In this document: positions 2,208 to 5,391 of the stretch, piece by piece
How positions within the stretch are numbered: position 1 is the first letter of the stretch
How the letters are laid out: each line of letters starts with the position of its first letter
Assembly (NCBI RefSeq): GCF_041053105.1
Contig: NZ_CP163444.1
Location: 2,542,001-2,606,000 of the forward strand
Origin: Streptomyces sp. R44
Lineage (GTDB): Bacteria > Actinomycetota > Actinomycetes > Streptomycetales > Streptomycetaceae
DNA length: 64,000 bases
Reading direction: 5' to 3'
Notes under the pieces: generated by a model
Database searches by the model: none
Seen by the model: the letters and a program-made list of their open reading frames with translations, nothing else
What the model was told of the DNA's origin: nothing
Translations under genes and position numbers: made by a program

Positions 2208-2235
2208 TTGCCACCGCCCTACCCCTCAGTACATT
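2208..2235 (+). promoter_or_regulatory. Predicted leaderless promoter of the diiron enzyme gene
   Basis: A -35-like TTGCCA (2208-2213) and a -10-like TACATT (2230-2235) are separated by 16 bp. The expected transcription start falls on or beside the A of the ATG at 2242, and no ribosome binding site is visible, so the transcript is probably leaderless, as is common in Streptomyces. Predicted from sequence only. Confidence 0.45.
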
Positions 2236-2241
2236 GACGTC

Positions 2242-3126
2242 ATGTCTAATACGCAGCCTGCACCGGTGGCGTCGGAGCACGTCGAGCTCAAGGCCCGCAA
2301 GGTCTCCTTCGACTGGGAAGAGACACCGCTCCACTGGGTACCGGGCGACCCCTTCACCACGCACACCATCAACGTGCTGCACCTGCTGCTCCCGGCCGGC
2401 GAACGCTGGTTCGTCCACGTCTACAAGCAGGCGCTGCCGTACATCACCGACGACCGGCTGCGCGAGGACGTCATCGGCTTCATCGGCCAGGAGGCCATCC
2501 ACTCCCAGGCCCACGACGACGTCCTCCCCCACCTGCGGAAGCTGGGCCTCGACCCCACCCCGTACACCGCCCAGGTCGACTGGTTCTTCGAGAAGCTCCT
2601 CGGGGACCGGACCCTGCCGCCCGGCCGTCCCCGCCGCTGGTGGCTCATGGAGCGGGTCGCGCTGATCGCCGCCATCGAGCACTACACCGCCTTCCTCGGC
2701 GACTGGGTCCTCAACGCCGACGCGCTCGACCGGGTCGGCGCCGACCCGACCATGCTGGACCTGCTGCGCTGGCACGGCGCCGAGGAGGTCGAGCACCGCG
2801 CGGTCGCCTTCGAGCTCTTCATGCACCTCGACGGCGGCTACCGGCGCCGCGCCCGCACCTGGGCGCTCGCCTTCTCCGCGCTCGTGTTCCTCTGGCAGCG
2901 CGGGATCCGCTTCTTCATGGAGAACGATCCGAGCCTGCTCGACCCGAAGGCCTCCTTCTCCGACTTCGTCCGCAAGGGACGGCAGGGCCTGCTGCCCTCC
3001 ACCCCCGCCATGCTCCGCTCCATACCCCGCTACCTCAGCCACGCCTACCACCCCTCCCAGGAGGGGAACACCGCGCAGGCCATGGCCTACCTGGCCTCCT
3101 CCCCCGGCGCCAACGGAGGCCACTGA
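2242..3126 (+). CDS. Putative diiron-carboxylate enzyme (usually annotated 'metal-dependent hydrolase', PF10118-like)
   Basis: 294 residues, the usual size for proteins labelled predicted metal-dependent hydrolase. The sequence instead shows the ligand pattern of ferritin-like diiron oxygenases: Glu54, Glu84-x-x-His87, Glu146, Glu182-x-x-His185, plus His178 four residues before Glu182. The order and spacing closely follow the seven ligands known for the N-oxygenase AurF. The downstream gene, overlapping by one base (TGATG), encodes a flavin/2Fe-2S reductase, which is what a diiron oxygenase needs and a hydrolase does not. My reading is an oxygenase or desaturase on an unknown substrate. The family label is from memory; the ligand spacing is counted directly. 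Translation probably starts at a leaderless ATG. Confidence 0.85.
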   Translation: MSNTQPAPVASEHVELKARKVSFDWEETPLHWVPGDPFTTHTINVLHLLLPAGERWFVHVYKQALPYITDDRLREDVIGFIGQEAIHSQAHDDVLPHLRKLGLDPTPYTAQVDWFFEKLLGDRTLPPGRPRRWWLMERVALIAAIEHYTAFLGDWVLNADALDRVGADPTMLDLLRWHGAEEVEHRAVAFELFMHLDGGYRRRARTWALAFSALVFLWQRGIRFFMENDPSLLDPKASFSDFVRKGRQGLLPSTPAMLRSIPRYLSHAYHPSQEGNTAQAMAYLASSPGANGGH

Positions 3127-4178
3127 TGCCCCGGTTCACCACCGTCGCCCTCGTCGCCGGGGCCGCGCTGCTCGTCCGCCGCGCCGTCCGCAGCCGCATG
3201 TCCACGGCGCCGCTCTGGCCGATGCCCGCCCTCGACACCCCCGTCTCCGGGTACGGCCGGGGCAGCACCGTCCCCCGCAAGGTCCTCGTCACCGGCCGTG
3301 CCACGCCCGCCGAGGGCGTCGTCGAGCTGCGCCTGGAGGGTGACGGGCTGCCCGCCTGGCAGCCGGGCGCCCACGTCGACCTCGTCCTGCCCTCCGGGCT
3401 GGTCCGGCAGTACTCGCTCTGCGGGGATCCGGCCGCCGCCGACACGTACACCGTCGCCACCCGTCTCATCGAGGACGGGCGCGGGGGCTCGCGCGAAGTG
3501 CACGAGCGGCTCCACGAGGGCGCGGAGATCGAGATCCGCGGGCCCCGCAACCGGTTCCCGCTCGTCGACGCCCCCGCGTACGTCTTCGTCGCCGGCGGCA
3601 TCGGCATCACCCCGGTCCTGCCCATGGTGCGCGCCGCCGAGACGGCCGGGGCGGACTGGCGGCTCGTGTACTGCGGGCGGAGCCGGGCCACCATGCCCTA
3701 TCTGGACGAGATCGAGCGGCTGGGCGGCGGCGACCGCGTTACCGTCGTCGCCGAGGACGAATCCGGCTTCCCCGAGCTGGAGTTCCTCGCGCACGTGCCC
3801 GCCGAGACGCTCGTGTACTGCTGCGGGCCCGACGGCCTGATGGACGCCGTGAGCGCGGCCATGCCCGAGGGCCGGGCGCCGCGCCTGGAGCGCTTCACCT
3901 CCGCCGCGGCCACCGGCACCGCCTTCGAGGTCGAACTGCGCCGTTCCGGGCGGACGTTGACGGTGGCGGCCGACCAGTCGCTCCTGTCGGCGGTCCGCGA
4001 GGAGCTGCCGGGCATCATGTACTCCTGCCGGCAGGGGTTCTGCGGAACCTGCCAACAGCGGGTCCTGGAGGGCGAGATCGACCACCGGGACGAACTGCTC
4101 ACCGACGACGAGCGGGAGGACTCGATGCTGATCTGCGTCTCGCGGTGCGCGGGGAAGCGGCTCGTCCTCGACCTCTAG
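3126..4178 (+). CDS. NAD(P)H:2Fe-2S ferredoxin oxidoreductase, PDR/VanB-type, with possible membrane anchor
   Basis: 350 residues. Domains in order: a short hydrophobic N-terminal segment at about residues 5-20 that may anchor it to the membrane; a flavin-binding barrel with the 'RQYSLCGDP' motif near residue 97; an NAD-binding domain with 'GGIGITPVLPM' near residue 158; and a C-terminal plant-type ferredoxin domain with cysteines spaced C-x4-C-x2-C ('SCRQGFCGTC') and a last ligand in 'MLICVSRC'. Such proteins pass electrons from NAD(P)H through flavin and a 2Fe-2S cluster to a partner oxygenase. The start ATG overlaps the stop of the upstream putative diiron gene by one base, so the two are almost certainly co-translated and the upstream enzyme is the likely partner. 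Confidence 0.93.
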   Translation: MPRFTTVALVAGAALLVRRAVRSRMSTAPLWPMPALDTPVSGYGRGSTVPRKVLVTGRATPAEGVVELRLEGDGLPAWQPGAHVDLVLPSGLVRQYSLCGDPAAADTYTVATRLIEDGRGGSREVHERLHEGAEIEIRGPRNRFPLVDAPAYVFVAGGIGITPVLPMVRAAETAGADWRLVYCGRSRATMPYLDEIERLGGGDRVTVVAEDESGFPELEFLAHVPAETLVYCCGPDGLMDAVSAAMPEGRAPRLERFTSAAATGTAFEVELRRSGRTLTVAADQSLLSAVREELPGIMYSCRQGFCGTCQQRVLEGEIDHRDELLTDDEREDSMLICVSRCAGKRLVLDL

Positions 4179-4677: not shown

Positions 4678-5391
4678 ATGACGACCGGGGTGCGCCGCAG
4701 GATGGGCGTCGAGGAGCGCAAGCAGCAGTTGATCGGGGTGGCCCTCGAACTCTTCGGCCACCGCTCTCCCGACGAGGTCTCCATCGACGAGATCGCCGCG
4801 GCCGCGGGCATCTCGCGGCCGCTGGTCTACCACTACTTCCCCGGCAAGCAGAGCCTCTACGAGGCGGCGCTGCGGCGCGCGGCGGACGAGCTGGCCGCCC
4901 GGTTCGTGGAGCCGCCGCGGGGGCCGCTCGGGGCCCGGCTGCTACGGGTCATGGGCCGGTTCTTCGACTTCGTCGACGAGCACGGGCCCGGCTTCGCGGC
5001 GCTGATGCGCGGCGGTCCCGCCGTGGGCTCGTCCACGACGAACGCGATGATCGACGAGGTCCGGCAGGCCGCGTACGAGCAGATCCTGGCCCATCTGGAC
5101 GTCGAGAAGCCCTCCGCCCGGCTCGAACTCGTCGTCCGTTCCTGGGTGTCGCTCGCCGAGTCGACGGCGCTGCTCTGGCTGGACGGCCGCCGGGTCCCGC
5201 GCGCGGAGCTGGAGCTCCAGCTCGTGCACGACTTCGCGGCGCTGGCCGCGGTGAGCGCCGCGTACGACCCGGGCATGGCGGAGATCCTCGTCCGGATCCT
5301 CTCGGACGAGCCGGCCGACGGGCCCTTCGGGGAGCTCGTGGCCAGGCTCTCGGCGCTCGCGCCCGGCGTGCCCGGTCAGCCCTTGCGGTAG
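4678..5391 (+). CDS. TetR-family transcriptional regulator
   Basis: 237 residues. The N-terminal helix-turn-helix is typical: 'SIDEIAAAAGISRPLVYHYF' at about residues 31-50 followed by 'PGKQSLYEAAL'. The remaining 170 residues form the variable ligand-binding half, so the inducer cannot be told from sequence. The target is probably its own promoter and the divergent acidic membrane protein 37 bp away; the diiron oxygenase pair upstream is another candidate. No clear inverted repeat is visible in the short intergenic space. The 3' end overlaps the convergent tautomerase gene by 16 bp. Confidence 0.9.
   Translation: MTTGVRRRMGVEERKQQLIGVALELFGHRSPDEVSIDEIAAAAGISRPLVYHYFPGKQSLYEAALRRAADELAARFVEPPRGPLGARLLRVMGRFFDFVDEHGPGFAALMRGGPAVGSSTTNAMIDEVRQAAYEQILAHLDVEKPSARLELVVRSWVSLAESTALLWLDGRRVPRAELELQLVHDFAALAAVSAAYDPGMAEILVRILSDEPADGPFGELVARLSALAPGVPGQPLR

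Follow-up and report, generated by a model that had tools for sequence, protein, structure and literature searches.

The closest described systems to the one analysed here are the AurF-like N-oxygenases AurF, CmlI and AzoC (family PF11583), the dimetal halogenases CylC and NocO, and the R2 and R2lox proteins. CylC and NocO work on fatty acyl chains bound to a carrier protein. R2 and R2lox share the ferritin-like fold and have, to our knowledge, neither a third histidine ligand nor a reductase operon of the kind described below. AzoC, a relative of AurF, has the modelled ligands Glu102, Glu137, His140, Glu198, His225, Glu229 and His232, with a spacing of 35-3-58-27-4-3 (available part of PMC6783550). 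According to the available part of PMC12101540, a set of three histidines and four carboxylates is largely unique to N-oxygenases, a third histidine ligand is described for AurF and CylC/NocO, Asp135 and Asp226 of AurF form hydrogen bonds with ligand histidines, and CylC and its homologues carry the motifs QExxH and HxxDExxH. The window, a stretch of 64,000 nucleotides from the 8.9 Mb genome of Streptomyces sp. R44 (NZ_CP163444.1, positions 2,542,001 to 2,606,000), contains two adjacent genes that invite comparison with these systems. Gene 1, whose closest named relatives are from Streptomyces, encodes a member of PF10118, a family labelled "Predicted metal-dependent hydrolase" in Pfam (short name Metal_hydrol). 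The comparisons below indicate that gene 1 very likely encodes a reductase-fed ferritin-like dimetal oxygenase, most likely diiron, with a 3-His/4-carboxylate site, and that gene 2 probably encodes its dedicated electron supplier. The catalogue name "metal-dependent hydrolase" is probably wrong. The features concerned are:

2242..3126, forward strand: gene 1, PF10118 protein of 294 residues, proposed ferritin-like diiron oxygenase (PF10118 profile, invariant residues, AlphaFold2 model)
2401..2403, forward strand: E54, proposed metal ligand 1, on helix 46-67 (43/43 alignment rows)
2491..2502, forward strand: E84-x-x-H87, proposed ligands 2 and 3, preceded by the invariant Q83, on helix 71-92 (43/43 rows each)
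2677..2679, forward strand: E146, proposed ligand 4, on helix 129-157 (43/43 rows)
2773..2796, forward strand: H178-x-x-E181-E182-x-E184-H185, third histidine and second ExxH, proposed ligands 5-7, on helix 169-196 (43/43 rows for H178, E181, E182, E184 and H185)
3115..3119, forward strand: GGAGG, likely ribosome-binding site of gene 2 (from sequence)
3126..4178, forward strand: gene 2, NAD(P)H reductase of the phthalate dioxygenase reductase (PDR) type, 350 residues, with a short hydrophobic N-terminus, a flavin domain, an NAD domain and a C-terminal 2Fe-2S ferredoxin (Fer2 and NAD_binding_1)

Gene 1 scores 257.1 bits against the PF10118 profile (curated cut-off 33.2) in a Pfam scan, and no NCBIfam model matches its protein at E 0.001. 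The residues E54, E84, H87, E146, H178, E182 and H185 were read from the open reading frame (ORF) at 2242-3126, exactly where an earlier interpretation of the locus from its letters alone (the sequence-only reading) had placed them. The motif ExxH occurs only twice in the protein, at 84 and 182. The spacing of the seven residues is 30-3-59-32-4-3. Since the AzoC ligands come in the same order with similar spacing, the AurF ligand order given in the sequence-only reading is correct.

Conservation was analysed in two sets. Alignment A1 comprises 35 rows, the window protein and 34 others that share 22-79% identity with it and come from plasmids and from genomes of the phylum, and the 43-row set adds eight proteins from viral contigs, with identities down to 21%. 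Apart from the start methionine, 15 columns of A1 are invariant (R19, E54, F80, Q83, E84, H87, H91, E146, W177, H178, E181, E182, E184, H185 and P271). With the viral proteins included, the seven proposed ligands show no variation in 43/43 rows, as had been predicted for the family, and the same holds for Q83, H91, W177, E181 and E184; R19 falls to 36/43 rows and H147 is present in 39/43. The chance that seven random picks from the 31 Glu and His residues would all fall among the ten invariant ones is 4.6e-5, a value that gives a scale only, as the picks are non-random.

The following relatives lie outside the 43 rows. The closest 80 of 589 relatives on genome contigs (79 Streptomyces and one Microtetraspora glauca; hereafter the close loci), together with L007 and L010, are near copies with intact ligands. 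The start of L022 was called too early, giving a misaligned row without 6/9 checked positions, and its profile alignment shows all seven ligands. L034 is a fragment of 169 residues that covers ligands 1-3 only, all three being present. L155 consists of the second half only, with ligands 5-7 present when read by eye. L153 is truncated at a contig end and is close to L152 in sequence, L146 and L149 are the same as L145 in the PF10118 gene, and L190-L192 are later additions with the ligands present by eye. A homologue in Synechococcus phage BUCT-ZZ01 (L193:2920-3543) keeps the seven ligands by eye and has Lys at the position of W177, which is therefore not universal. In this isolated cyanophage the gene is annotated as a hypothetical protein and lies two genes before the terminase large subunit.

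The AlphaFold2 model of gene 1 (pLDDT 86.7, pTM 0.85) places the seven residues on the helices 46-67, 71-92, 129-157 and 169-196. In each comparison of the model with the Protein Data Bank (PDB), the 50 matches listed are ferritin-like proteins, including CmlI, with no hydrolase fold among them. CmlI is equalled or outranked by R2 and R2lox structures (best VIA Z 15.3). The anticipated resemblance to AurF/CmlI-type folds is borne out in part, by the ferritin-like matches and by ligands carried on four long helices, and convergence of the ligands into one site is a prediction.

The AurF profile (PF11583) gives no match to the gene 1 protein at E 0.001 or at E 1, and in the Pfam scan of the A1 members the window protein itself matches PF10118 alone. 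Besides PF10118 (35/35), members of A1 touch AurF (9/35, best E 0.0028), Ferritin_2 (3/35, best E 1.4e-4), Rubrerythrin (3/35, best E 0.02), and COQ7 and the ribonucleotide reductase small chain (one member each); seven other families that touch one or two members each were taken as chance. The Pfam model of PF10118 matches one AurF paralogue of the same genome weakly, at E 6.8e-4 and below the cut-off. A search of the 35-row profile against the AurF loci of the genome with hmmsearch gave no match, and sequence searches of the PDB gave one chance match for the single protein and nothing convincing for the 35-row profile. Profile-profile comparison of the 43 PF10118 rows with 12 AurF-type sequences yields a score of 31.7, compared with 14.9 ± 2.5 (maximum 26.1) for 200 column shuffles, 0/200 of which reach 31.7. 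This score is the better of two comparisons, made with a cleaner AurF set and the shuffle control; an earlier hhalign comparison of A1 with a mixed AurF set of 20 was weaker (score 25.9) and useless in global mode. In the profile-profile alignment, read by eye, E54, E84, H87, H178, E182 and H185 are in register with their AurF-family counterparts, and E146 is one residue off the position expected by spacing (6/7 ligands in register).

Gene 1 thus shares with AurF, CmlI and AzoC the seven ligands, three His and four carboxylates, in the same order. However, it differs from AurF in the second sphere, where Gln83 replaces Asp135 and a Glu replaces Asp226, and from all three N-oxygenases in lacking an AurF profile match and in having a coupled PDR-type reductase. 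The motifs QExxH and HxxEExxH are each present in 43/43 PF10118 rows. Judged by the described motifs, the family resembles CylC/NocO in QExxH and in the 3-His site (available part of PMC12101540), and is unlike them in having HxxEExxH in place of HxxDExxH. At the level of these motifs, PF10118 combines a halogenase-like Gln with an acid kept at the second place, a combination outside the account given in the available part of that paper. The PF11583 proteins of the same genome (L003-L005) have either Asp or Glu before the first ExxH, so that Asp there is a feature of AurF more than of its whole family. The term "AurF-type" used in the sequence-only reading therefore fits the ligand set, but neither the second sphere nor the family membership.

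The gene 2 protein contains RQYS at 94, GGIGITP at 157 and CX4CX2C from 301 with a later Cys, which correspond to the flavin RxYS motif, the NAD GGxGxTP motif and the C-terminal CX4CX2C...C ferredoxin motif. With all domains and motifs present, gene 2 is, as proposed earlier, a complete flavin/2Fe-2S reductase with a hydrophobic N-terminal segment. Among solved structures, it matches phthalate dioxygenase reductase (2pia, E 2.3e-47) and the C-terminal parts of P450 chains (6kbh, E 2.9e-60; 6laa, E 1.4e-59). Domain order and motifs are alike in PDR, in the reductase parts of these fused P450s and in gene 2. In contrast to them, gene 2 has an N-terminal hydrophobic stretch, and its partner is a PF10118 protein rather than a Rieske oxygenase or a P450. 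The stretch consists of ~13 hydrophobic residues, followed by arginines in most of the examples listed, and its best 15-residue hydropathy has a median of 1.6 over the 80 close loci (lowest 0.8, L090). A helix of gene 1 near 205-226 has a mean hydropathy of 0.49 to 2.01 in 34/35 A1 rows. These hydrophobic stretches would allow a location of the pair at the membrane edge, the membrane-near position of the sequence-only reading being a possibility.

The stop codon of gene 1 (TGA, 3124-3126) and the start codon of gene 2 (ATG, 3126-3128) overlap by one base (TGATG), an arrangement suggestive of possible translational coupling. The description of the pair as fused in translation holds for the overlap of the genes only, which encode two proteins, not one. 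Gene 2 lies downstream of gene 1 in 80/80 close loci, and its nearest in-frame ATG or GTG is within -7 to +4 bases of the gene 1 stop in 79/80. In the exception, L090:5680-7950 of Streptomyces shenzhenensis, both genes are in one open frame. This candidate for a natural fusion comes from a single draft genome and was not used; its linker contains a 31-base repeat that also occurs upstream of gene 1, and the reductase could have its own start at an internal GTG. Since the whole genome has only four matches to gene 2, itself included, a chance adjacency of the two genes is unlikely.

More distant relatives were represented by 34 further loci, 24 genome regions (one of the same genus) and ten plasmid loci. 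A PDR-type reductase is encoded downstream on the same strand in 14/34; an epoxide-hydrolase-type gene lies between the PF10118 gene and the reductase in L163 and L164, and the reductase match is split across two frames in L123. Two loci from genomes of the same class, L159 and L162, have a Fer4-type ferredoxin and a flavin adenine dinucleotide (FAD) ferredoxin reductase after PF10118 instead. The ferredoxin has 62 residues with Cys at 10, 16, 20 and 53, the reductase matches Pyr_redox_2/Reductase_C, and the ends of the three genes overlap or nearly touch. Neither type of redox partner is found downstream in the remaining 18/34 loci. A ferredoxin reductase lies upstream of PF10118 in L119, within a P450 gene set. 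In a quick tree of the 43 rows, a branch with SH-aLRT 99 sets 24 rows apart; all reductase-partnered rows are in this group, together with six rows without a seen partner. As a separate observation by eye from the ORF list, an AurF paralogue of the Streptomyces genome (L004, at ~608 kb; ORFs 3-1331 and 2361-3851) has directly downstream, on the same strand, an ORF that resembles a ferredoxin/FAD reductase, and upstream an ORF that resembles a flavin monooxygenase.

The partner genes strengthen the interpretation of PF10118 as an oxygenase: a reductase that is conserved, and an unrelated ferredoxin with a ferredoxin reductase in another branch. Together with the ligand invariance and the ferritin-like model they support the proposal of the sequence-only reading that the pair is a diiron oxygenase system and not a hydrolase, the metal being predicted. 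In the proposed mechanism, NAD(P)H would reduce the flavin of gene 2, and the 2Fe-2S domain of gene 2 would relay the electrons singly to a diferric centre in gene 1. The resulting diferrous centre would bind O2, and a peroxo or higher-valent species would then oxygenate a hydrophobic substrate, either hydroxylating or epoxidising it. The preferred chemistry puts oxygen into a hydrophobic carbon substrate, which may be acyl, terpenoid or otherwise lipid-like, with halogenation or desaturation also in view.

Neighbouring genes give hints at the substrate. In 4/34 further loci (L118, L161, L163 and L164), an alpha/beta hydrolase is encoded no more than 33 bases after the end of the PF10118 match. 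These hydrolases have the epoxide-hydrolase-type active-site motifs HG(Y/W)P and HDWG and lack GxSxG. The best solved relatives of the L163 and L118 hydrolases are epoxide hydrolases, with dehalogenases also among the L163 matches. L161, L163 and L164 are close relatives in the tree and hence count as about one event. L158 also has a hydrolase neighbour, but of the Ser type and in the opposite orientation, and this one is left out of the count. A gene of the limonene-epoxide-hydrolase family follows the reductase in L122 (a family match to PF07858, 55.8 bits), and acyl-CoA genes occur near L121 and L156. An acyl-carrier-protein-like gene directly follows PF10118 in 7/15 viral contigs (L144, L145, L146, L149, L190, L191 and L192), a parallel to the carrier-bound substrates of CylC/NocO. 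L145, L146 and L149 are identical in the PF10118 gene, and three of the seven were found with the L145 protein as query, which favours kin. Two of the viral carrier proteins were profiled and match PF00550. The same search in 40 other loci, which include the 34 further PF10118 loci, found no acyl carrier protein, the 80 close loci being outside its range. Profiling of 30 neighbour proteins gave epoxide-hydrolase-type, acyltransferase and CoA-transferase genes, one protein resembling a flavin monooxygenase with a weak match to a lysine/ornithine N-monooxygenase model, and no clear amine or nitro pathway. These neighbours hint at the oxidation of lipid-like or carrier-bound acyl chains. However, the epoxide-hydrolase and acyl-carrier neighbours come from other branches and do not serve as evidence for the Streptomyces enzyme itself.

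A wider interpretation is put forward tentatively, as a serious possibility. Among the ferritin-like oxygenases with a 3-His/4-carboxylate site, PF10118 may form a third branch, one that has the halogenase Gln and oxidises carbon, by epoxidising C=C bonds or hydroxylating C-H bonds, on lipid-like or carrier-bound acyl chains. In bacteria this branch would have taken on two or more unrelated NAD(P)H electron chains. In the phage group it would come with an acyl carrier protein of its own, which would make it a phage-borne fatty-acyl oxygenase.

The alternative that survives best, although unlikely, is C-H activation with halogenation or desaturation as the outcome, as in CylC/NocO or the diiron acyl desaturases. 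The pairing of PF10118 with an acyl carrier protein in the viral branch is in its favour, and desaturation gains a further point from the mycobacterial desaturase DesA3, which also relies on a separate reductase. Also in favour of this alternative is the Gln before the first ExxH in all 43 rows, which the dimetal halogenases have where AurF has Asp135, but the halogenases have HxxDExxH rather than the HxxEExxH found here (available part of PMC12101540). The epoxide-hydrolase-type neighbours point to epoxides instead, but hydrolases with an Asp nucleophile include dehalogenases, which were matched for L163.

It is less likely still, and distinctly improbable, that the gene 1 protein, ferritin-like in fold, reacts with O2 or peroxide and oxygenates no substrate, in the manner of R2lox, rubrerythrin or a peroxide scavenger. 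The ranking of R2 and R2lox at or above CmlI and the contacts of Ferritin_2 and Rubrerythrin with three A1 members each would suit such a protein. However, a third His ligand is the feature described for AurF and CylC/NocO (available part of PMC12101540), the gene 2 reductase is of a type that serves oxygenases, and some branches have epoxide-hydrolase-type and acyl-carrier neighbours.

An N-oxygenase acting on an amine, like AurF or CmlI, would account for the ligand set and order and for the weak AurF profile similarity, and a flavin monoamine oxidase and an amidase do lie a few kb from the PF10118 member of L118. This alternative is nevertheless very improbable in view of the Asp-to-Gln change before the first ExxH and of the profiled neighbours, which include epoxide-hydrolase-type, acyltransferase and CoA-transferase genes rather than a clear amine or nitro pathway. 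Least credible of all is a metal-dependent hydrolase or protease with a chance reductase neighbour, for which the Pfam name and a 2022 study in which Prot_241, a group within PF10118, ranks as a candidate for the protease of class III lanthipeptides speak, the latter through a statistical link by co-occurrence and co-expression (available part of PMC8960859), and against which stand the seven-ligand pattern, the ferritin-like model and two unrelated predicted electron chains coupled to different PF10118 members.

If the diiron oxygenase interpretation is correct, the "metal-dependent hydrolase" of annotation pipelines, PF10118, is in fact a family of diiron oxygenases that has yet to be assayed. 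Its members on Streptomyces chromosomes, on plasmids of Rhodococcus, Mycolicibacterium, Acinetobacter and Burkholderia, and in phages would then have to be interpreted differently. Genome mining that treats PF10118 as a class of proteases would also be undercut, and the published use of the family as a protease group should be doubted (available part of PMC8960859). An enzyme with its natural reductase in an easily expressed two-gene unit would permit a direct test of the effect of Gln for Asp outside the halogenases. Among the papers listed, from a collection without most subscription journals, none assigns PF10118 to diiron enzymes in its title or abstract opening; PF10118 itself is named in one paper, and no mention of COG3687, or of AurF together with metal-dependent hydrolase, was found.

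Relatives were drawn from genomes, genome contigs, plasmid records and viral contigs, with other phyla represented via plasmids, phage records and viral contigs only. PF10118 is present in 17/296 sampled genomes of the phylum, in 5/9 same-genus genomes listed, and in 75 of 72,556 plasmid records, with hosts including the four plasmid-bearing genera named above; ten of the 75 were used for the locus analysis. Ten phage-collection records (CAKLQ...) named Acinetobacter phage MD-2021a hold PF10118 genes; as a guess, these may be host contigs. In two genomes, a distant branch of PF10118 has a neighbouring gene that resembles DUF7802 at a score below the cut-off (L174:4338-5462 and L178:4473-5717).

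Two further features flank the gene pair:

2208..2235, forward strand: promoter-like site TTGCCA-16-TACATT (one found, compared with a mean of 0.1 in shuffles of the region)
4678..5391, forward strand: TetR-type regulator, possible regulator of the pair (TetR_N and TetR_C_46; matched in 77/80 close loci)

The -10 element TACATT ends 6 nt before the ATG of gene 1. The upstream consensus is TCAGTACATTGACGCC-ATG-TCTAA, each base of which is found in >80% of 81 upstream regions (the window and the 80 close loci). The proximity of the promoter-like site to the ATG and the sharing of its core bases suggest that the gene 1 message is possibly leaderless. A regulator site over the start codon was also considered and rejected. 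In the genome, the 17-base motif has a single exact copy and 16 copies with three mismatches, compared with nine for the reversed control; with copies not far above the control, it looks like a promoter and not like a regulon motif. The window contains no RNA family at the gathering score and no tRNA. A paralogue of the TetR-type regulator, 53% identical (L006:465-1229), lies beside another ferritin-like gene of the genome (PF11583, 46.5 bits).

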